IMG/VR virus record: IMGVR_UViG_3300021957_002958
Location: 1 to 31,648 of that record
Source of the DNA: a virus
Length of the DNA: 31,648 bases
Strand: one strand, 5' to 3'
Of the stretch, positions 379-15,921 are shown piece by piece. Every line of letters starts with the position of its first letter. Within the stretch, counting starts at the first letter, position 1. The notes below the pieces were generated by a model. It was given only the letters and a program-made list of their open reading frames with translations. It was not told the DNA's origin and did no database searches. The position numbers were made by a program, and so were the translations under genes.

Positions 379-1575
379 TTACTTTTTAAACTCCGCTGCT
401 TCTTCAGAACCGCCTGTTGCAGTTCCTTTAGTGTAAGAGTGAGCGCCCATGCCAGCAAGGTCTCCGTCTTTAACAATTAGATATTCATCTCTGATATCAA
501 AACCAGCAAAGTAACATTCTAGTATTTCTCTAACGCCGTCTGCATATCTTGTCTGTGCTGATAATGAAGTTCCAGAAGTGTGTGGTGTCATTCCGTGATG
601 AGGCATTGTTCTCCAAACATGGTCGTTAGGGGCAGGTTGTGGGAACCAGACATCGCCAGCATACCCTGATAGTTGCCCTGACTCACATGCACGAGCAATA
701 GCGTCTTTATCACAGATTTTACCTCTTGCAGTATTAATAATGTATGCGCCTTTCTTACACTTAGCAATCATCTCGTCATCAAACAAGTGTTCTGTTTCGG
801 GGTGTAGTGGGCAACTAATATTAATTACATCACAATGTCTAACTAAAGACTCAACTGAATCATGATAGATTAAACCTAATTCTCTTTCTACTTTATTAGG
901 TAGTCTGTGTTTATCGAAGTAGTGAAGATGTACATCAAATGGTTTCATCTTTCTTAACATATCAATACCGATACGGCCAGCAGCGATTGTGCCGACATGC
1001 ATACCTTCAACATCATATGACCTTGAAACTGCATCAGCAATGTGCCAACCACCCTCATTCACAATATTGTGTTGAGTAGTAAAATCTCTTACTAAAACTA
1101 AAATCTGCATAACGATATGTTCTGCAACAGACCTTGAATTACAATAAGTTACTTCAACAACATCAATGTTGTGGTCCATAGCAGCCTGTAAATCAACATG
1201 GTCTGAACCAATACCAGCGGTAATCGCCATCTTTAAAAGAGGCGCACTTTCCATTTTCTCTCTTGTTACATAGTAAGGAAAGAATGGTTGAGAAATAACA
1301 ATATCTGCATCAACTAATTCTCTATCAGCTTCACAACCTTCGCCATCTTTGTCAGATGTAACGACTAATGAATGACCTCTTTCTTCTAAAAACTTTCTAA
1401 GGCCTAGTTCACCAGACACGCAACCTAATAGTTCACCAGGTGTAAAATCTCTGCCTTGAGGACTAGGTAATGTCATGCCGTCAGGATATTTGTCTATTTT
1501 AGGTAAATCGCTTAGTGGATAACTTTCTGGCATTCCGCCCTTAGGGTCATCATATAATACGCATAATACTTTCAT
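379..1575 (-). CDS. fdh: NAD-dependent formate dehydrogenase (D-2-hydroxyacid dehydrogenase superfamily)
   Basis: Predicted cytoplasmic homodimeric enzyme oxidising formate to CO2 with reduction of NAD+ to NADH. At 398 residues it matches the single-subunit, metal-free FDH family (about 400) and keeps the numbering of the Pseudomonas sp. 101 enzyme as I remember it. Residues known to bind substrate or catalyse are present: P97, F98, I122, N146, R284, Q313 and H332. The Rossmann motif is AAGRIG at 198-203, and D221, which selects NAD over NADP, is retained; the next residue is Lys instead of Arg, and 99 is Phe instead of Trp. The family-typical C-terminus GAHSYxKG...GGSEEAA is complete. This separates it from generic glycerate or lactate dehydrogenases. 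A strong Shine-Dalgarno (AAGGAGAAG) precedes ATG 1575, and the ATG overlaps the gp16 stop (TAATG), so it should be expressed late. No frameshift or truncation is seen. Confidence 0.96.
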   Translation of the reverse strand: MKVLCVLYDDPKGGMPESYPLSDLPKIDKYPDGMTLPSPQGRDFTPGELLGCVSGELGLRKFLEERGHSLVVTSDKDGEGCEADRELVDADIVISQPFFPYYVTREKMESAPLLKMAITAGIGSDHVDLQAAMDHNIDVVEVTYCNSRSVAEHIVMQILVLVRDFTTQHNIVNEGGWHIADAVSRSYDVEGMHVGTIAAGRIGIDMLRKMKPFDVHLHYFDKHRLPNKVERELGLIYHDSVESLVRHCDVINISCPLHPETEHLFDDEMIAKCKKGAYIINTARGKICDKDAIARACESGQLSGYAGDVWFPQPAPNDHVWRTMPHHGMTPHTSGTSLSAQTRYADGVREILECYFAGFDIRDEYLIVKDGDLAGMGAHSYTKGTATGGSEEAAEFKK

Positions 1576-1988: not shown

Positions 1989-2561
1989 TTAAAAATAGTT
2001 AAAATTAATATTCAATCTTCTTGTTGCATTTGTACAGGTTGTACTATGATGTGGTCTGCTCGAATTAAATAATAAAAGTCTGTTTCCAACACTTTCAATT
2101 TCAGTACCATCTTCTAGTACAGTTAATCCATCATTATCGTTTATGTAAAACAAAGCACCTTTCTGTTCGAATGGAAAATCAGTATGATATGAATGATTAA
2201 GTCTAGTATGTGTTCTTGGGTGGTAATTAATACTACACCTTATTAATGACTTCATCTCAAGCATATTCATAACCGGCACAAGTTTATTCCATGTCGTTTC
2301 ATTTGTATAAAGTAGATTATCTGCATATACTTTATGGGCTAACATAAAATCATAATCTAATTCTTCCTCTGTCAAACTTTTAATTGGCCAATCTGGCGAT
2401 AAGTTTAAATGTTTGCGTTTATCTTCCAAATTATTATGCTCTCTAATACCATTTACAGTTTCATAATGGTACCAATTAAATGTGTTTGATTCAAAATATG
2501 CTTTTAAATCACGGTATGTTTCGCCGTCTAATACATTGTCAATAATTTTATAATCAATCAT
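1989..2561 (-). CDS. 2OG-Fe(II) oxygenase-like protein, copy B of tandem pair
   Basis: Putative 2-oxoglutarate/Fe(II)-dependent dioxygenase of 190 residues. The iron triad can be proposed as H126-x-D128 (HTD) with a distal His in SRPHHST (H171 or H172), and a 2OG-binding Arg at R181 or R182 just before the final strand LNINFNYF. These features sit in a cupin-like beta-rich C-terminal half (about 105-190); the N-terminal 100 residues are helical and carry an insertion relative to the neighbouring copy. It is paralogous to the protein encoded at 2565-3089, with which it shares LFYxNxNDGLTxLEDGTEIxSV and PHHSTTCT. It lies between gp15 and gp16 and is 3 nt from both flanking genes. Substrate is unknown: a protein, nucleotide or small-molecule hydroxylase are all possible. 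Confidence 0.75.
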   Translation of the reverse strand: MIDYKIIDNVLDGETYRDLKAYFESNTFNWYHYETVNGIREHNNLEDKRKHLNLSPDWPIKSLTEEELDYDFMLAHKVYADNLLYTNETTWNKLVPVMNMLEMKSLIRCSINYHPRTHTRLNHSYHTDFPFEQKGALFYINDNDGLTVLEDGTEIESVGNRLLLFNSSRPHHSTTCTNATRRLNINFNYF

Positions 2562-2564
2562 AAC

Positions 2565-3089
2565 TTAAAAATAATTAAAATTCAAATTCACTCGTCTAGC
2601 TGCATCTGTGCAAGTGGTACTGTGGTGAGGCTTACTTGCATCATGCAATAAAATTCTGTTTTCTACACTTTTTATTTCAGTACCATCCTCTAGTATAGTT
2701 AATCCATCATTTGTATTTAAATAGAACAAAGCGCCTGTGTGTTCATATGGCAAGTCTGTATGGTCTTGATGATGAACTATTCTTGGTGTTTTAGGATATG
2801 AATTTGCTTTTGCTCTTATTAAAGATTTAGGTTCTAGAACACTAAGTATGGGTTGTATTGCATTCCAAACATCTGGAGAAGTTACTAGCATACTTTCACG
2901 AAAAATCGAGTGGAACCAAAAAAAATTCCAATCCTTTTGGTCTTGAGTTAATGGTTCTATAGCCCAACTTGGGTTAACAACATCTTTTTCAAAATACCAA
3001 GAAATTTTATCTCCTAACATAAAATCTTTTAATATATCAAAGTCATTGGTGTTTAGTGCATTATCTATAATCTTATACTCACTTTCCAT
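2565..3089 (-). CDS. 2OG-Fe(II) oxygenase-like protein, copy A of tandem pair
   Basis: Putative 2OG-Fe(II) dioxygenase of 174 residues, upstream member of the tandem pair. Proposed ligands are H110-x-D112 (HTD), a distal His in SKPHHST (H155 or H156) and R165/R166 ahead of the last strand VNLNFNYF. The C-terminal half is closely similar to the next gene at protein and DNA level, whereas the N-terminal thirds have diverged, with about 16 residues fewer here. ATG 3089 is preceded by an AGGAAT-type Shine-Dalgarno on the minus strand. It follows gp15 by 18 nt, so it is transcribed with the neck/tail genes. A role in modifying virion proteins or host metabolites during late infection can be proposed from position only; no substrate is indicated by the sequence. 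Confidence 0.75.
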   Translation of the reverse strand: MESEYKIIDNALNTNDFDILKDFMLGDKISWYFEKDVVNPSWAIEPLTQDQKDWNFFWFHSIFRESMLVTSPDVWNAIQPILSVLEPKSLIRAKANSYPKTPRIVHHQDHTDLPYEHTGALFYLNTNDGLTILEDGTEIKSVENRILLHDASKPHHSTTCTDAARRVNLNFNYF

Positions 3090-8053: not shown

Positions 8054-8386
8054 TTATCTTGTTACACTAGGCGTTACTGTAACTCTTCCTTCAATTCGTC
8101 TAGTAATTAACCCACCACTAGTGGTTGTTGTTAAATCCCACACATACCGTCCTTCAGTAAGAGAAGCTGTTACTGTATCTGTGAGTGTAATTGAACATGT
8201 GCCGTCAGTACCACTTACAATTGCAGTAGTAAATGCTGTAGCACTTGATGATAGATGAGTCTTTCTCAGTTTACTTGTAACTGTTTGTCCTGATATATCG
8301 ACAACAGTTCCAGTAGAATCTTTAATGGTTAATGTCTGTGTGAAATCAGCATCTTGGTCGATTGTAAGATTTTGTATCGTTGCCAT
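8054..8386 (-). CDS. Small Ig-like virion protein (BppU N-terminal-like fold), 110 aa
   Basis: Small beta-rich protein. The pattern FTQTLTIKDSTGTVVDISGQTV, then CSITLTDTVTASLTEGRYVWDL and a final RRIEGRVTVTPSVTR resembles the single Ig-like domain that heads phage upper-baseplate proteins (BppU_N type) and also occurs alone in T4-like marine phages. It is the first gene after a perfect late promoter (8419-8426) and begins a run with the 364- and 472-residue structural genes and gp13-gp15, so it is probably a virion component. Assignment to the fold is from sequence pattern only. Confidence 0.55.
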   Translation of the reverse strand: MATIQNLTIDQDADFTQTLTIKDSTGTVVDISGQTVTSKLRKTHLSSSATAFTTAIVSGTDGTCSITLTDTVTASLTEGRYVWDLTTTTSGGLITRRIEGRVTVTPSVTR

Positions 8387-8418: not shown

Positions 8419-8426
8419 TATTTATA
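8419..8426 (-). promoter_or_regulatory. T4-type late promoter (TATAAATA)
   Basis: Perfect TATAAATA on the minus strand inside the 60-nt gap between the halogenase stop and the 110-residue gene; with T4 spacing, transcription would start near 8413, leaving about a 26-nt leader before ATG 8386. It would drive the downstream structural genes independently of the enzyme cassette. Confidence 0.7.
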
Positions 8427-8446: not shown

Positions 8447-9946
8447 TCATAATGTTGAGTATATGTTTTTTTCTAAGTAATCAGTCACCAATGACATTTC
8501 TTCAGTTTTCTCTATATAATACGCTTTTCTATTTTTTAAATAACTAAGCTCTTTTAATATTTCTTTATGTTGAGATTTGGTGTACTGATTTAATTCTACA
8601 TCTCTCCACATTAAATTTTTTACTGGGTAGTTCATTCCTATCAAAATACAGTCTTTAGATTTTATATCAAACCAATCACTTCTAATATTTGTACTATAAT
8701 CAACAAAGTCGTCAGTAATTTTAATGTTATTTTGTATGTATTTCCAATATGGACTATCATCTCTAGTAGTATTTACATAATGTAACAACACAAAATTGTG
8801 TGTATCTTTAAATATTTCATCTAGTTTTTTATTGTAAGAAGCTCTGACGAAAGCTGAATTATTAGAAGTTTTGATTTGTTTAATGAATTCTTCTATTTGA
8901 TATCCAGTTATAGCAAGACCAGTTGATTCTAAAGGCTCTATAAATCCTGAAGCTAAAGTGAGTGCAAGACAATTGCCTACCCATCCTCGTTTGTACTTTC
9001 CTGTCTTAAACTGAACAACATTAAACTCTGCATTGTCAACTCGTTTTTTATCAAAGCGTTTAACTAAATAGTTTTTAAATTCTTTCTGTGCATCTTCTTG
9101 CGACTGAAATCTACTACTAAATACATATCCTGTGCCCATCCGTGACCATAAAGGTGCGTTCCACACCCAGCCTGATGAAAGCGCAGTACAGTCTGTAAAT
9201 GGCTCTAATTCTTTAGACTTATTGACATAAGGCATACGACAAGTAATAGCAGTATCATTTAATAAAGTATCATTTATTGACTCAAATGGTTCTTTCAAAG
9301 CGCCATCAATCAACAGGCACTTCAATCCAGTACAGTCTATAAACATATCAGCTTCTATTAACCCTTTGTCTGTAGTTACTGAAACAATTGTAGAACCATC
9401 AACTTTTACATGGTCTACATTAGCAAGTATGTGTGTACCTTTAAATTTAGTTTTGCAATATTGTCCAAATTTAATTGCATCTATATGATGAGCATAAGAA
9501 AATCCTTCGTCTGGCAAACAATCAAACTTATTGTTCTCGCCCATATGATAACCAATAAAGTTTGTGCCGTAATAATCATCTGTGTCAGGCTTGTCTAAAT
9601 TTGTAAGTTCTTGTTTAATTGCCCAGTCATAAGGGTTTAAATCTTGTTCTTCTCTTGTCCAAAAAGGATGATAACAGATACTTTTTTCAGAAGTAAAATT
9701 GTTAAATTTAATAGCCGCTTTGTATGTAGCATCACAAAAGGGCATCCACTCTTTTTCTTTAAAGCCTAGAGTATCTTTAATAAATGCAGTTGTAAATGGT
9801 ATTGTTGATTCACCTACGCCTATAACTGGCACATTAGGTGATTCAACTAATGTAACTTTAATATGTGGCAATTGTTTGTTTAAAGCTACAGCCATCATCC
9901 ACCCACTTGAGCCACCGCCGACAATACAAATACTATTTACGCTCAT
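8447..9946 (-). CDS. Flavin-dependent tryptophan-halogenase-family protein
   Basis: FAD-dependent halogenase family, which uses FADH2, O2 and halide to make HOX that is tunnelled to a substrate pocket. At 499 residues it has family length. Visible motifs: FAD-binding GGGSSG at 10-15, GVGEST at 43-48, the lysine that forms the reactive haloamine (K76 in ATYKAAIKF), a W260-V-W-N-A-P265 version of the diagnostic WxWxIP motif (Ile replaced by Ala), and GFIEPLEST at 334-342, whose E340-S341 match the catalytic Glu-Ser pair of PrnA/RebH. The intact Lys and Glu argue for halogenation rather than monooxygenation. A related cyanophage enzyme (VirX1 of Syn10) has been reported as an iodinating halogenase. 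ATG 9946 lies 14 nt inside the upstream oxygenase gene. No flavin reductase is seen in the window, so FADH2 would have to come from the host or another phage gene. Confidence 0.9.
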   Translation of the reverse strand: MSVNSICIVGGGSSGWMMAVALNKQLPHIKVTLVESPNVPVIGVGESTIPFTTAFIKDTLGFKEKEWMPFCDATYKAAIKFNNFTSEKSICYHPFWTREEQDLNPYDWAIKQELTNLDKPDTDDYYGTNFIGYHMGENNKFDCLPDEGFSYAHHIDAIKFGQYCKTKFKGTHILANVDHVKVDGSTIVSVTTDKGLIEADMFIDCTGLKCLLIDGALKEPFESINDTLLNDTAITCRMPYVNKSKELEPFTDCTALSSGWVWNAPLWSRMGTGYVFSSRFQSQEDAQKEFKNYLVKRFDKKRVDNAEFNVVQFKTGKYKRGWVGNCLALTLASGFIEPLESTGLAITGYQIEEFIKQIKTSNNSAFVRASYNKKLDEIFKDTHNFVLLHYVNTTRDDSPYWKYIQNNIKITDDFVDYSTNIRSDWFDIKSKDCILIGMNYPVKNLMWRDVELNQYTKSQHKEILKELSYLKNRKAYYIEKTEEMSLVTDYLEKNIYSTL

Positions 9947-10481
9947 CTTCTAATTTTTTAATTTTTGTAAGAAGTTTTTCTTGTATGCCTTCGAAATTAA
10001 CATTAAAAGATATAATTGTCTTTCGTGTTTTTGCTACATTAGTCGGCGCTTTATGTATTCTATAACCAGGAAATATAACCAAATCGCCTTCTGATACTGG
10101 CAAATCTATTATTTCGTCATTGCTATAAATTTGTGTTTCGACAGGATTAGGCATTTCTAAGTAATACAATCCAGTATAGTTGTCGCTGTGCAAATGCCAT
10201 TCATGTACATCATTGTGTTCATATTGTTGATACCAAATTCCTCTTACATCAAAAGTTTTATAACCAAGCTTATCCACAAGCGATTGATAAGTTTTGTTAA
10301 AATGTGGCATAAAATATTGAACCCACTTTCTAGTAAAATCTTCTGATTGATACCAATCTAATCTACTTACTTTATCGTTTGTATTATCATTTGGCCCACT
10401 AGGTTGAGAATTAATTAAATCAAGCAATGTATCTTTAATAACATTGTGCGTTTCTACTTTAGTTAATAAGATTTCGTTCAT
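9933..10481 (-). CDS. 2OG-Fe(II) oxygenase, 182 aa
   Basis: Putative 2-oxoglutarate/iron dioxygenase of the short phage type. Core motifs: EWHLHSD giving H98-x-D100, FPGYRIHKAP giving the distal H143, and KTRKTIISFNVNF giving the 2OG-binding R153 on the last strand. The N-terminal 80 residues are helical with WYQSEDFTRKW. Family members in marine phages are common and mostly of unknown substrate. The start ATG overlaps the preceding oxygenase stop by 4 nt (ATGA), and the C-terminal end overlaps the halogenase start by 14 nt, so the three enzymes form one translationally coupled set. Its sequence is unlike the duplicated pair at 1989-3089, so it is a separate lineage. Confidence 0.82.
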   Translation of the reverse strand: MNEILLTKVETHNVIKDTLLDLINSQPSGPNDNTNDKVSRLDWYQSEDFTRKWVQYFMPHFNKTYQSLVDKLGYKTFDVRGIWYQQYEHNDVHEWHLHSDNYTGLYYLEMPNPVETQIYSNDEIIDLPVSEGDLVIFPGYRIHKAPTNVAKTRKTIISFNVNFEGIQEKLLTKIKKLEDERK

Positions 10482-11074
10482 ACTAGTAACATATCTATAT
10501 CTTCGCCATGCGTACTGATATTAAAGAACCCTGTAATAATGTATTTGTCGTTTGAGATTGGCGGATTGCCTCTATGTGTGTGCATAAAATCAGCAGGCGC
10601 TAAAACTATTTTTCCTTGTTCTGGTTTAGTTCTTTCACTTTGATACAAAAATTCTGTTTCTCCGCCTTCATCTACAGTATTCAAATAAATCATCCATACT
10701 AGTATTCTGCGTGAAGTTGTAGGACTTAAATTATCACAATGCCATCTGTGAAAGCCTCCACCTACAGGAGTCTTTTGAATTTTCTGTTTAATACTATATA
10801 TGTTTTCTTCTCTAAGAATTGGAAAAGTATCAGAGTATTCTTGAAACGCTTTGTCAAGATATTCGTTTACTAATATAGCGTGTTTGGGCTCAAATACATC
10901 TAGAATATGATAAAAATCATTTCTAGCCATTGCATTGGGTTTGTTTGGAATTGATTCGTGCGCTGTAGCTGGTTCTGTGAGCATTGCGGCTTCAAATATT
11001 TCTATCATCTCCCGACAATTCACTTCTGGGAACTTAAAACTCATAGTTTTAATTCCAATACTATCTGTATTCAT
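10478..11074 (-). CDS. Prolyl-4-hydroxylase-like 2OG-Fe(II) oxygenase, 198 aa
   Basis: Most P4H-like of the four oxygenases in the window: HRWHCDN gives H112-x-D114, then YLNTVDEGGETEF (residues 130-142, strongly diagnostic of P4H-type proteins), a KIVLAPADFMHTHRGNPP segment with the distal His (H165 or H167), and K177 in NDKYIITGFF as the 2OG-binding lysine. It is a soluble single-domain protein. A GTG codon lies 6 nt upstream at 11080 in frame, but the GAGGAG Shine-Dalgarno (11080-11085) is correctly spaced only for ATG 11074, which I chose. It is the first gene of the oxygenase/oxygenase/halogenase operon, served by the late promoter at 11101-11108. Likely targets are proline or other residues of proteins, or small molecules; not decidable here. 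Confidence 0.85.
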   Translation of the reverse strand: MNTDSIGIKTMSFKFPEVNCREMIEIFEAAMLTEPATAHESIPNKPNAMARNDFYHILDVFEPKHAILVNEYLDKAFQEYSDTFPILREENIYSIKQKIQKTPVGGGFHRWHCDNLSPTTSRRILVWMIYLNTVDEGGETEFLYQSERTKPEQGKIVLAPADFMHTHRGNPPISNDKYIITGFFNISTHGEDIDMLLV

Positions 11075-11079
11075 TATCA

Positions 11080-11085
11080 CTCCTC
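11080..11085 (-). promoter_or_regulatory. Shine-Dalgarno GAGGAG deciding the start at 11074
   Basis: GAGGAG on the minus strand, 5 nt before ATG 11074. It overlaps the alternative in-frame GTG at 11078-11080, which rules that codon out as the main start. Confidence 0.8.
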
Positions 11086-11100
11086 ATTATATTATATCCT

Positions 11101-11108
11101 TATTTATA
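11101..11108 (-). promoter_or_regulatory. T4-type late promoter (TATAAATA)
   Basis: Perfect TATAAATA on the minus strand in the 68-nt gap after the Cys-rich mini-protein. It predicts a start near 11095, about 21 nt before ATG 11074, so the oxygenase/halogenase operon has its own late promoter. Confidence 0.75.
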
Positions 11109-11142: not shown

Positions 11143-11331
11143 TTACCATTTTCCTAACGGACATTGTGCTGGTTTTGCTCTTGCCTTCCATCTAAGCACA
11201 CAAAGACATTCACGACAAATTTCTTGTCCTATTCTCATTTCCATGTGCTCACATGCCTTACATATTTCTAGTCTAGCGGCCGCTTCTTCAGCGCTAGACA
11301 GCATCTTAAATTCATCAATAATTTTGTGCAT
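11143..11331 (-). CDS. Cys-rich mini-protein, probable zinc ribbon, 62 aa
   Basis: Small protein with six cysteines: C24-x2-C27, C39-x2-C42-x-C44 and C57 in a terminal CPLGKW. The CxxC pairs are consistent with a single Zn-binding ribbon or knuckle. The first 20 residues are helical (MHKIIDEFKMLSSAEEAAAR). I recall similar CxxC...CPxGKW proteins beside fibre genes of marine T4-like phages, but know no function for them. Its ATG overlaps the stop of the 166-residue gene (1 nt), so it is coupled to it; a stoichiometric partner or assembly factor is conceivable. Confidence 0.7.
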   Translation of the reverse strand: MHKIIDEFKMLSSAEEAAARLEICKACEHMEMRIGQEICRECLCVLRWKARAKPAQCPLGKW

Positions 11332-11831
11332 TATACAAAAGAATCATCTCCCCATGTTAATGTAATATTACCCGTAGTCAAAGTAGTAAAGGTCGATGCT
11401 GGTTGTTCAGGAGCATCAGCATCCGGTTGTGTAAACATTGATGTTCCGTCTTTTAAAACTGTTTCAACCAGATATTCTTCATTCCAATCATCAAGTGCTG
11501 TTTTAAAGGCGTCATGTTGTGCTTTTGTAATGTATTTACACTTTACTTTAATGACTGATGTACCCTTTGTTTTTTGATGTACCTGTACATTTGTGTTTGT
11601 ATAATCTATATAACCAGCATCATCTGCGTGTAAATCGTATGCCTTGTAGTGTAACCATTCTCCTGCTGGAGCTCCACCACCATGAGTTGCTGTTACACCT
11701 GATACCTGTTCGATGGTAACAAATGCTTCATGCATCTTTCCTTCACCAGAGTAATCAAATACAAGCTCTATATTATCTTCATTCGTGTACTGGTCCCCTG
11801 AAGAGCGTCTTGCTTTTAATGTTATCGCCAT
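11331..11831 (-). CDS. Uncharacterised protein of the fibre region, 166 aa
   Basis: Not recognised. The start ITLKARRSSGDQYTNEDNIEL is followed by predicted beta strands (ELVFDYS, AFVTIEQVSGV), an aromatic/His-rich stretch GEWLHYKAYDLHADDAGYIDY at about 57-77, a helix KAQHDAFKTALDDWNEEYL and a terminal strand-rich tail ending ITLTWGDDSFV. No transmembrane segment or signal peptide is visible. A strong Shine-Dalgarno (AAGGAGAG) precedes ATG 11831. It lies 19 nt after the glycine-rich adhesin gene, so an accessory fibre protein or fibre-assembly chaperone is a reasonable guess from context only. Confidence 0.6.
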   Translation of the reverse strand: MAITLKARRSSGDQYTNEDNIELVFDYSGEGKMHEAFVTIEQVSGVTATHGGGAPAGEWLHYKAYDLHADDAGYIDYTNTNVQVHQKTKGTSVIKVKCKYITKAQHDAFKTALDDWNEEYLVETVLKDGTSMFTQPDADAPEQPASTFTTLTTGNITLTWGDDSFV

Positions 11832-11850: not shown

Positions 11851-12897
11851 TTATGAAATTTGGCCTGTATTGCCCGCTAAAGCAGAACCCGCTGAACCAC
11901 TGGCAGTACCATTTGAGCCAGCTGAGCCGCCTGAGCCGCCACCTGGACCACCTTGACCGCCGTGGCAATTATTTGTTCGAGGGCCGCCGCCTGCACCACC
12001 AGAACCACTAGCACCAAGACTGCCCCCAGAGCCGCCATTGCCGCCGTGACCATTATATCCGGCACAGTTTGCACCACTCCATCCACCGCCTGGAGCACCA
12101 GCGCCACCGCCGCCGCCTGAGTTTGCACCACCAGATGAACCAGAAGTGCGGCCGCCACCGCCTCCGCCACCAGCTGCACCACCACCGCCACCGCCGCCGG
12201 CATTCTGCCACCATGCTGAGCGTCCGCCGCCGCCTCCGCCACCACCGTTTCCAGTAATAGTTTTAGTTCCTGCAGCACCCCCAGTTCGTGTACCAGCTGT
12301 GTCGAAAATTACGGATAAATTATTGTCAGCAGTTTGTGAATGTTCAAAAGCGTTACCGCCATTATTAGCAGAATCTGCTGTTCCTGAACCTGCGTTTCCT
12401 GTACCACCAGATGTGCCGACTGCTTGTGATGTTCCTGAACCGCCTGTACCACCACCGCCTCCACCTGAACCTGGACTAGCTGATGTGTTAGAGCCTGAAG
12501 CGCCTACAATCGAGCCATTATTAGTAATGTTAATAGTTACTCCTGAGCCCCAACCTGTATCTGTTTTCATTGCAGGAGTGCTGGTTGATGTAGAACCTAC
12601 TGTTACACCACTACTAATAGTCAGTATAACTGGTGTATTTTGGTCACCGCCAGCATTTTGTACAGCAGTTTTAATGTTGTAGTTGTTTGTATTACTACCA
12701 CAAGTTATTACAGTTGCTGCTACAGCGTCATAATAATCAGACATCTGTATTTCACCAGAAGTTGGGCATTGGGGATTAGCTCCTTGTGGCACATTATCAC
12801 CACCACCATAATATTCACTTAGTTGATGAGGTTCAGAACCGCCAAATTCAGCAACGAGTTCACTAATCTCTATTTGTCCGCTTGATTGCATTGCCAT
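11851..12897 (-). CDS. Glycine-rich tail adhesin, 348 aa
   Basis: Predicted receptor-binding tip protein. The N-terminal 60 residues hold two copies of a short structural motif: SGQIEISELVAEFG and SGEIQMSDYYDA, the fibre-docking module found at the start of many phage glycine-rich tail proteins. Residues 60-130 are beta-rich (ISSGVTVGS, VTINITNNGSIVGASG). From about 140 to the end are long GGGGGG-type runs interrupted by short variable loops (NNC, GHGG, SAWWQN), a pattern resembling the polyglycine-II sandwich of T-even gp38 adhesins, in which the loops contact the receptor. It directly follows a long S74-tailed fibre, as gp38 follows gp37 in T-even phages. The antisense Pro-rich frame across it is an artefact of its composition. 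Confidence 0.8.
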   Translation of the reverse strand: MAMQSSGQIEISELVAEFGGSEPHQLSEYYGGGDNVPQGANPQCPTSGEIQMSDYYDAVAATVITCGSNTNNYNIKTAVQNAGGDQNTPVILTISSGVTVGSTSTSTPAMKTDTGWGSGVTINITNNGSIVGASGSNTSASPGSGGGGGGTGGSGTSQAVGTSGGTGNAGSGTADSANNGGNAFEHSQTADNNLSVIFDTAGTRTGGAAGTKTITGNGGGGGGGGRSAWWQNAGGGGGGGAAGGGGGGGRTSGSSGGANSGGGGGAGAPGGGWSGANCAGYNGHGGNGGSGGSLGASGSGGAGGGPRTNNCHGGQGGPGGGSGGSAGSNGTASGSAGSALAGNTGQIS

Positions 12898-12900
12898 ATA

Positions 12901-15900
12901 TTATTCTCCTTTTAGTTCGTCTATTTCTGCTTTTAATTCTTTGATTGCCTCTACTAATAGACCGATTGTTTGGTCATACTGTAGAACTTTATATTCGTTT
13001 CCGTCATCTATCTTCAAAGGTAACTCTTTTTCTGTTATTGCAGAAGGTAATACTTTTTCGACATCTTGTGCAATAAGTCCAGCAGACTCTTTACCATCTG
13101 CCTTATATGTGAATGTAACACCATTAAGCTGACTAACTTTAGATAATGCATCGCCAATAGGTTGTATGTTTTCTTTTAATCTTTCATCAGAAATCGTTGT
13201 TGAGAAAGCAACAACATCACCATCAACATGTAAGTCACCATCAGCTTCAAGTCGAGCTTCTTCGCCACCATTAACAACAAAACTTATATGTGCATTGTTA
13301 GAAAATTCAAGTTTATCTCCTGAATCTAATCCAATGTTTCCACCAGTTGCATATAAGTCACCATTAACTTGTCCACCACCTGAAGTTGTTTCATATTTAT
13401 TAACATTGTTATAATAAAGTTGAACAGCACCGTCTTGAGTACAGACAATCATATTTTCATCCACAGCAGCATTCTTTATTGCAACGGCTGAACCTGAAAG
13501 AAATAAACTTCCTGTGCCTGAATCTCGAACAATACTGTTTGAACCATCGTGATATAGTTTAAGGTCCTGAGCAGCGCCCATCATAATATTACCATTATCT
13601 GGGAAATAGGCATTTGAGTTAAATGTAGCAGCACCCGCCTCAGACATATCTAGTGTAAGTGCCGTGATACCAGAACCACCATCATTACCTTTAAACTTGA
13701 TGTCGTAATCTTGAATGGGATTATCAATTGCTAAACAATAATTATCTTGATAAAGAGTACCAAACTGTGTTCCGCCATCTTTCAATTTTATTTCAGCGCC
13801 ATCAGCATCTAAAATAATATCTCCAGAAGCATCAATTGTAAAATCACCCGTTCTTGTAATCGTGTCTATCACAGGCGTTGTTAATGTCTTGTTTGTTAAT
13901 GTTTTCGTTGTAGCGGCAAAATAAGTATCGAAAGTATCAACATTGGTCATACGCATTGTACCACCATCATTTGTTAGAATACCGTCGCCAGAAGCAACAG
14001 CAGTTGTTCCTCTTGATGTTCCGCCGTCTATTAGATTGATTTCAGCAGGTGTTGCTGTAATTGCAGTAGCAGAAGCAGCCGCAAGAACAGGTAAAGTGCC
14101 TGAAACATTAGGCAAAGAAATTGTTCTGTCGCCTGTCGCATCAATAGATGTTAATGTTGTTTCGTGGTCGTCTGCCGTTGCACCTTCAAACACAACAGCG
14201 TTATTGGCGTTCATTGTTACAGAGTTTGTAATCGTTTGCGTTCCAGAAACAACAAGGTTTGTGGCCGATAGTGTTCCTGTACTTGGGTTATATGTTAAGT
14301 TACCATCTGATTCTAGCCCTACATTACCACCATCTGCATCTGCTCCAGCAACAAATGTAAGAACATTATTCTCATTTGTAGACTCATTGTCTGTTACTGT
14401 TACAGTAGTTGCAACAGCAGATGTTCCAGAGTAACCACTTGATGTAATAGTACCAAGTGATGAACCGCCATCTGCGAATGTGATTGTGCCGCCGTCAGCA
14501 TCTAATGTAACACCACCAGATGAGTTAAGAGTAACTGTAGTTCCGGCGAGTTCGGCAGTACCATCAGCAGTAATTGTGATGTTTGCAGCTGCGGCTGCGG
14601 TGTCTACTGTTGTTAGAGTTGTTGCGCCGTTTGTGCCGACAGTTGTTGTGAAAGTATCTCCAGATGAACCAGTCATTGTGATGACTTTGCCGTTTATAGC
14701 AACATCATCAGCAGTTAAAGAACCGCCAGTAATTGCGCCAGTCGTTGTGATTGTAGATGAACCTGTGTCGATTGTGCCGAATCCTGAAGTGATTGAACCA
14801 GAGTCTAATGCACCAGTAGTAACAATATTACCACCACCAACATTATGTGATGAGAAATAAGTCGATACAGTATCGACATTGGTCATTCTCATTGTACCGC
14901 CGTCATTGATTAATATACCATCACCAGAAGCAACAGCAGTTGTGCCTCTTGCAGTACCGCCGTCTATTAAGTTTAATTCGGCCGCAGTTGAAGTAACATT
15001 AGTGCCGCCAAGTGAAAATTGTCCACTTATGTCGCAAGTACCATTGATATCAATTGCAGTAGCAGTTAAGTCTATTTCGTCTGTAGCGCCTAATGCTAAT
15101 ACGGTATCACTCAAACCGTGAATAAATTGGGTAGCATCACTAAATTGTATTTTTCTACTACTATTGATTAATATTCCTGTATCGTGGACATGGGTTATCG
15201 TTACATCATTATCAGCACCAAGTCCTAATACAGCTGCATCACTATTTAATTTTAAATCATTACTAACAAGAACTGCCGTAGAAGCATTTAAATCAATAGT
15301 TACTTCGCCATCTATTGTTAAAACACCATTAGATGATTGGTGAATAAATGTACCGCTATCACCAAATTGTAATTTATCTGTACTCGAAAGTAAAAGTCCT
15401 GTATCTGCTACATGAGTTAAACTAACATCTTGGTCATCGCCAAAGTTAATTACAGCACCGTCTGCCAAGAATAAATCTGACCATTCTAGAGCAGATGTTC
15501 CTAAAGAAGTTCCGTCAGACGCTGATGGCGAAAGAGCTGTTGTTGACATTCTTACTTTATCAGTACCGCCAAGTTTGAAATCTATTTGGTCGTCTGTATC
15601 AGCAGTCATTGTTGTATTACCATTAGCATCTAAAATTAATGCCGAACCATTAAGGTCTCTAAGATTTTGAACTACTGCTTGTCCTAAAAACTGTACATAA
15701 GTTCTTTGGCCATTTGCAGGTGCTGAGGCAAATACAATCTTAGTGCCACCTATTGCTAAACTATATCCTACTTTTGGTTCTAAGACAACAGCATTATCTG
15801 AAACTATAATTGAAGTTTCATCTGCAACTGTAAAATCTAATGTAAAGGTTGTTTCACTACCATCACCTGAAATTTGTTGTTTGGTGTGAAATCCATTTAC

Positions 15901-15921
15901 TGGGGGTTTTCCTATGTACAT
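12901..15921 (-). CDS. Long tail fibre with C-terminal S74 intramolecular chaperone, 1006 aa
   Basis: Predicted distal tail fibre. The N-terminus (1-90, with ISGDGSETTFTLDFTVADET and AGTK-type strands) is the virion-attachment type seen on marine phage fibres. The shaft from about 95 to 880 is beta-repeat: FGDDQDVSLTHVADTGLLL units, TAAELNLIDGGT units (twice), VFEGATADDHETTL...RTISLPNVSGT and TLTNKTLTTPVI. The C-terminal 100 residues are a Peptidase_S74-like trimerisation chaperone beginning STTISDERLKENI, with S911 as the predicted self-cleavage serine, and ending in a coiled coil (LLVEAIKELKAEIDELKGE). It starts with a 1-nt overlap on the preceding fibre and ends 3 nt before the glycine-rich adhesin. 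A Shine-Dalgarno (GGAG) lies before ATG 15921. Confidence 0.88.
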   Translation of the reverse strand: MYIGKPPVNGFHTKQQISGDGSETTFTLDFTVADETSIIVSDNAVVLEPKVGYSLAIGGTKIVFASAPANGQRTYVQFLGQAVVQNLRDLNGSALILDANGNTTMTADTDDQIDFKLGGTDKVRMSTTALSPSASDGTSLGTSALEWSDLFLADGAVINFGDDQDVSLTHVADTGLLLSSTDKLQFGDSGTFIHQSSNGVLTIDGEVTIDLNASTAVLVSNDLKLNSDAAVLGLGADNDVTITHVHDTGILINSSRKIQFSDATQFIHGLSDTVLALGATDEIDLTATAIDINGTCDISGQFSLGGTNVTSTAAELNLIDGGTARGTTAVASGDGILINDGGTMRMTNVDTVSTYFSSHNVGGGNIVTTGALDSGSITSGFGTIDTGSSTITTTGAITGGSLTADDVAINGKVITMTGSSGDTFTTTVGTNGATTLTTVDTAAAAANITITADGTAELAGTTVTLNSSGGVTLDADGGTITFADGGSSLGTITSSGYSGTSAVATTVTVTDNESTNENNVLTFVAGADADGGNVGLESDGNLTYNPSTGTLSATNLVVSGTQTITNSVTMNANNAVVFEGATADDHETTLTSIDATGDRTISLPNVSGTLPVLAAASATAITATPAEINLIDGGTSRGTTAVASGDGILTNDGGTMRMTNVDTFDTYFAATTKTLTNKTLTTPVIDTITRTGDFTIDASGDIILDADGAEIKLKDGGTQFGTLYQDNYCLAIDNPIQDYDIKFKGNDGGSGITALTLDMSEAGAATFNSNAYFPDNGNIMMGAAQDLKLYHDGSNSIVRDSGTGSLFLSGSAVAIKNAAVDENMIVCTQDGAVQLYYNNVNKYETTSGGGQVNGDLYATGGNIGLDSGDKLEFSNNAHISFVVNGGEEARLEADGDLHVDGDVVAFSTTISDERLKENIQPIGDALSKVSQLNGVTFTYKADGKESAGLIAQDVEKVLPSAITEKELPLKIDDGNEYKVLQYDQTIGLLVEAIKELKAEIDELKGE
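12950..12984. repeat. 35-bp perfect direct repeat in S74 domains, copy 1
   Basis: Identical to 15991-16025, both encoding the YDQTIGLLVE segment of the fibre chaperones. Surrounding DNA in both genes is also close but with mismatches. Such shared DNA allows homologous swapping of fibre tips. Confidence 0.85.

Follow-up and report, generated by a model that had tools for sequence, protein, structure and literature searches.

The best-known flavin-dependent halogenases of the PF04820 family act on free tryptophan. Phage halogenases are already known, as are multiple 2-oxoglutarate (2OG) oxygenases in cyanophages, and the enzymes described herein are of these known kinds. VirX1 of cyanophage Syn10, whose active site has been described as large and accessible, accepts many small aromatics (PMC8407142). 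Published proposals for cyanophage halogenases include protection against antibiotics (PMC2984593; PMC9964418), those for cyanophage 2OG oxygenases include DNA repair (PMC2984593) and 2OG balance (PMC3037559), and general metabolism is a further proposal for these enzymes. On the structural side, the polyglycine adhesin of Salmonella phage S16, gp38, shows variable loops that have been proposed as receptor binders (PMC6851490). A search of the freely accessible literature found no publication linking phage halogenases or 2OG oxygenases to fibre adhesins. The linkage of a halogenase to a polyglycine tip gene is the new part of the present work, and we hypothesize a function for it below.

The window analyzed here is the whole of IMG/VR record IMGVR_UViG_3300021957_002958, itself a 31.6-kb viral fragment (31,648 nucleotides). 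With profile matches to baseplate, fibre, gp13, gp14, gp15, and terminase small subunit proteins, it looks like the structural-gene part of a T4-like myovirus genome. No near-identical isolate was found when the DNA of the window was compared with that of isolates, the nearest being Pelagibacter phage HTVC008M, which matched over 1% of the sequence. The source is best explained as a T4-like marine (pelagiphage-type) myovirus. A D-2-hydroxyacid dehydrogenase gene (379-1575, minus strand; PF02826, 1e-45) adjoins the terminase small subunit gene, an odd site for a metabolic gene.

The cassette consists of three genes on the minus strand, read in the order oxygenase a, oxygenase b, halogenase, and held in tight overlap. 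Oxygenase a (10478..11074, 198 aa) and oxygenase b (9933..10481, 182 aa) share 4 nt (10478-10481), while oxygenase b and the halogenase (8447..9946, 499 aa) share 14 nt (9933-9946); the three oxidative enzymes and both overlap lengths of the original prediction were thus confirmed to the nucleotide. A ribosome-binding site, GAGGAG (11080..11085, minus strand), lies 5 nt ahead of the ATG at 11074, making this a likelier start than the mechanically called GTG at 11080. A match to the T4-type late promoter, TATAAATA, is found 26 nt ahead of the same ATG (11101..11108, minus strand), and another just 3' of the cassette (8419..8426, minus strand) precedes the gene at 8054-8386. Upstream of the cassette, at higher coordinates, are a conserved 62-aa Cys-rich, zinc-ribbon-like protein (11143..11331; PF19668, under its cut-off), a 166-aa protein without a Pfam or PHROG match that gene order across loci shows to be conserved in closer relatives (11331..11831), a 348-aa polyglycine-rich adhesin-like fibre-tip protein (11851..12897; phrog_10745), and two S74 fibres, one of which, a tail fibre with an S74 intramolecular chaperone (12901..15921; PF13884, 2e-17), lies directly upstream of the polyglycine gene. 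The four proteins with coordinates here are encoded on the minus strand.

The halogenase cleared the curated cut-off of Trp_halogenase PF04820 (315.7 bits vs 21; 7e-94), matched phrog_2928 (4e-117), and had VirX1 (6QGM, 1e-80) as its nearest solved structure. Among 19 aligned phage halogenases, G10, G12, and G15 of the dinucleotide-binding motif GxGxxG (GGGSSG in the window) were invariant, as were K76 and E337. The catalytic Lys and Glu positions are those of VirX1, with K76 aligning to its lysine, and we take K76 and E337 to correspond to K79 and E346 of PrnA. The cassette enzyme is a VirX1-type flavin-dependent halogenase that has kept its catalytic residues, and halogenation with FADH2, O2, and halide is its predicted activity. 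It nevertheless differs from VirX1, with about 33-35% identity, a diverging C-terminus, and WVWNAP at the WxWxIP site (WxWNIP in relatives L065 and L008). No flavin reductase of family PF01613 was found in the 11 related phages searched, so FADH2 is presumably host-supplied. In Syn9, a phage related to Syn10, the halogenase gene gave a tblastn score equal to that of Syn10 and belongs to a block on the fibre side that also holds several 2OG genes. Often two or three phage halogenases stand in tandem, overlapping and divergent (L016, L019, L022, L024, L220, L228, L231, L233, L250, and others), and phage contigs from human faeces (MT835646.1 and MT837902.1) encode halogenases 30-32% identical to that of the window.

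Oxygenase a matched PF13640 (3e-12) and phrog_61 (6e-40) and carries H112-x-D114, H165/H167, K177, and an EGGET signature. Across 35 family sequences the His and Lys are invariant, and almost every sequence has D or E at position 114; the HxD...H iron site and the 2OG lysine are both present. Its structural model, of moderate quality (pLDDT 79), has a prolyl-4-hydroxylase (P4H) fold (5C5T, E 7e-8; 4J25, TM 0.65 on the query), and its matches ranked the Chlorella-virus collagen prolyl hydroxylase (vCPH, 5C5T) ahead of a Pseudomonas P4H acting on EF-Tu and known in complex with it (4IW3) and of PHD2. Like these enzymes, it has the HxD...H...K spacing and EGGET as well as the fold, although identity in the structural alignment is 14-18% and the likeness in fold is drawn from a model at pLDDT 79. 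Oxygenase a is therefore described here as a putative prolyl-4-hydroxylase-like 2OG/Fe(II) oxygenase with its catalytic residues kept, and proline hydroxylation is its predicted activity. Oxygenase b (2OG-FeII_Oxy_5 type; PF13759, 4e-8; phrog_81, 1e-24) was modeled as a double-stranded beta-helix with pLDDT 91.9. It has the profile and fold of PF13759 oxygenases, which occur in marine phages and in bacteria of the Roseobacter group; the nearest structures (2RG4 and 3BVC) are uncharacterised proteins. In all 37 aligned sequences (alignment A5), H96-x-H98...H143 is invariant and no acid is conserved, such that HxH stands where canonical 2OG oxygenases have HxD and the HxD/E...H facial triad is lacking. 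By profile, oxygenase b is a PF13759 member and the second 2OG-type oxygenase of the cassette, with a possible unusual metal site of the HxH...H type.

Two further adjacent genes in the window (1989-2561 and 2565-3089, minus strand) matched phrog_274, labeled 'DNA endonuclease V', a label that is also common beside halogenases in cyanophage records. Their sequences carry the 2OG-type HxD...H pattern, and a review states that denV is absent from cyanophage genomes (PMC2984593); for both reasons the label looks misannotated, and we rejected it for the genes near cassettes in favor of a 2OG-type assignment.

The polyglycine protein, encoded 0.8 kb upstream of the cassette, is 31% Gly; variable segments separate its glycine runs, the longest of which is G9. 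Glycine-rich motifs that alternate with variable segments, together with a gene position directly after the distal fibre gene, are features of S16 gp38 (6F45). Unlike gp38, however, the protein had no meaningful PDB sequence match, and it lacks the conserved Trp of the gp38 N-terminal attachment helices (PMC6851490), there being no Trp within its first 110 residues. We therefore rejected its membership in gp38 and put forward the adhesin role by analogy: the protein may work like gp38. In phage S-SRM01, a halogenase adjoins an annotated gp37-gp38 adhesin tip gene.

Six copies of TATAAATA were found in the window, all on the minus strand (8419, 11101, 19631, 19641, 21276, and 30775), a count that by itself is not above chance (3.3 ± 1.7 expected; 12 of 100 shuffled windows reached as many). 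It is their placement, and not their number, that makes them credible as T4-type late promoters: all six lie on the coding strand 5-45 nt ahead of a start codon, in a window that is only 1.2% intergenic. Given this position just before coding-strand genes, the phage probably follows the T4-type late promoter consensus, and the cassette is probably expressed late. The cassette copy is present in close relatives L001, L004, and L006 and absent in L007, L065, and L140, where transcription from further upstream must serve. The original prediction gave the cassette its own late promoter; the promoter and the GAGGAG site are indeed present and well placed, but the arrangement is a lineage-specific trait and is not conserved.

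Gene order was compared across ten loci, comprising nine IMG/VR loci with halogenases 63-100% identical to that of the window, and L065. The order fibre, polyglycine gene, small genes, oxygenases, halogenase was kept down to 63% halogenase identity. The polyglycine gene was upstream in every window-clade locus whose contig extends that far, and the Cys-rich protein (55-62 aa in relatives) was kept in all of them. The order from adhesin to halogenase persisted while oxygenase content changed, with two to five oxygenases per locus within 5 kb and most of the extra genes again being 2OG-type by Pfam or PHROGs. Overlap was usual, at 61 of 84 same-strand junctions between neighboring halogenase and 2OG genes (with start codons called mechanically). 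Relatives of the polyglycine protein were also found near as many as five oxygenases where no halogenase lay within reach, several of these on contigs that end early, and the halogenase is accordingly one member of a changing set. The three-gene unit initially described holds insofar as halogenase and 2OG genes co-localise, while the exact trio of the window is only one version of a module with changing 2OG content.

Beyond these loci, a quick tree of 137 halogenases, in which deep branches are weak, requires the polyglycine label to switch about 22 times among its phage members, indicating that the arrangement has often been gained or lost and is not one frozen arrangement. The window halogenase fell in the VirX1-bearing part of the tree; in a distinct deep clade that includes P-SSM2 and HTVC008M, a polyglycine gene was nearby in 3 of 24 cases, vs 50 of 94. 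HTVC008M itself has a 2OG-halogenase pair that overlaps by 17 nt and lies between its terminase genes; beside gp13, four 2OG genes form a block of their own.

Rather than being scattered with no co-occurrence, the outcome that the original prediction had named against itself, the genes were linked. The positions of PF13640 and phrog_274 matches and of halogenases were taken from 18 phage genomes and the halogenase was rotated at random: 45 oxygenase genes lay within 6 kb of a halogenase, vs 16.7 ± 5.4 by rotation (0 of 5000 rotations), and 16 of the 18 genomes had at least one, vs 8.3. Because the phages are related, this and the following rotation tests overstate independence. A repeat with independent ORF calls in 12 genomes gave 51 oxygenases vs 15.5 ± 6.0. 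For polyglycine (glycine-dense) ORFs, identified by composition only, 16 were within 6 kb of a halogenase, vs 2.9 ± 2.1 (0 of 3000; 9 of 12 genomes). Among 80 viral halogenase loci, an oxygenase lay within 5 kb in 68 and within 60 nt in 43, and a polyglycine ORF was present in 41; among 80 cellular loci, compared with the viral ones by Fisher tests, the corresponding counts were 1, 1, and 2, with cellular oxygenases under-counted because the profiles were seeded from phages. Polyglycine density in the viral loci was 8.2 per 100 kb near halogenases and 3.4 far from them, a contrast that held at every glycine threshold tried, and in 34 of the 41 loci the polyglycine ORF closest to the halogenase was on its strand and upstream of it.

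Probable late expression, co-translation, a protein-hydroxylase fold, an open-pocket halogenase relative, and a fibre-tip neighbor together fit a post-translational modification of the tip, and the recurrence of this neighborhood across marine phages suggests chemical decoration of the part of the virus that contacts the host. Beyond the observed gene order, overlaps, motifs, folds, promoter placement, and statistical linkage, we infer protein targets, the adhesin as substrate, and an effect on binding; we consider the chances about even that the cassette encodes late enzymes hydroxylating and halogenating the fibre tip, most likely the polyglycine protein. Oxygenases a and b and the halogenase would be translated together, late, beside the fibre-tip genes, and would add hydroxyl groups and halogens to side chains exposed on the freshly synthesized tip. 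A flavin reductase of the host would supply FADH2, and the cell would provide 2-oxoglutarate, O2, and halide. Modified side chains on the variable, receptor-binding loops could add affinity or stability and so tune adhesion, and exchange of enzymes around the adhesin could diversify the modification. Several observations count against modification of the tip. Adhesins with and without a downstream halogenase (9 vs 16 loci) did not differ significantly in Trp, Tyr, Phe, His, Pro, or Lys, no polyglycine gene was found near the halogenases of P-RSM6 and S-MbCM6, the HTVC008M halogenase lies between terminase genes, the P-SSM2 clade rarely has the polyglycine neighbor, and 2OG genes as a class do not lie near polyglycine genes. 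The joint target first suggested, virion fibres among the options, is partly backed by the linkage of halogenases to 2OG genes and to upstream polyglycine adhesin-like genes, but not by adhesin aromatic and proline content, which does not track the halogenase; tRNA, other proteins, or small molecules may instead be the target.

Among such alternatives, the enzymes could belong to auxiliary metabolism and, during infection, make or modify in the host cell a halogenated or hydroxylated small compound (free Trp, an indole, or a signal), for example as an antibiotic or signal quencher. The free-tryptophan activity of the best-known family members, the many small aromatics taken by VirX1 (PMC8407142), and the antibiotic protection proposed for cyanophage halogenases (PMC2984593; PMC9964418) all speak for this, yet it would not lead one to expect either linkage to the polyglycine tip gene or a late-promoter setting. 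Moreover, Pfam and PHROG profiles recognised no other biosynthetic gene in the cassette, and the fold of oxygenase a is nearest to protein hydroxylases, so we regard this explanation as unlikely. That same fold, given its resemblance to the EF-Tu-hydroxylating Pseudomonas P4H (4IW3), would also suit a host target such as an outer-membrane receptor, a surface polymer, EF-Tu, or ribosomal proteins, modified to block superinfection or for takeover. The fibre neighborhood would then reflect shared receptor specificity, as a superinfection gene that masks a receptor may move together with the adhesin that binds it. We give a host target a low probability, since the timing suggested by TATAAATA is late for exclusion, and a varied target would account for the number and turnover of the oxygenases better than would a single, fixed host protein.

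It is similarly improbable, in our view, that the hypervariable fibre region is simply an insertion hot spot gathering unrelated cargo, in which case the halogenase and oxygenases need not act jointly or on the tip. Gene content beside fibres is variable, many 2OG genes lie away from fibres, and DNA repair (PMC2984593) and 2OG balance (PMC3037559) have been proposed for 2OG genes as well. However, a hot spot should draw 2OG genes in general to polyglycine genes too, and these were not enriched there (5 of 25 vs 7 expected), in contrast to the halogenases; the prevalence of overlapping junctions and the same-strand upstream order of the polyglycine ORFs point instead to selected co-expression.

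Returning to modification of the fibre tip, the link between halogenase and polyglycine tip gene gives phage halogenases and 2OG oxygenases a directly testable candidate target, and the layout is shared by cultured phages, namely S-WAM1, S-CREM1, S-SZBM1, and Syn9/Syn10. More tentatively, and at somewhat under even chances, we propose that marine T4-like phages practice modular hydroxylation and halogenation of their own receptor-binding tips, with oxygenase exchange diversifying the chemistry beyond the twenty amino acids. If true, the virion proteins of these phages would bear halogen and hydroxyl substituents, and receptor-binding diversity would gain a new layer.
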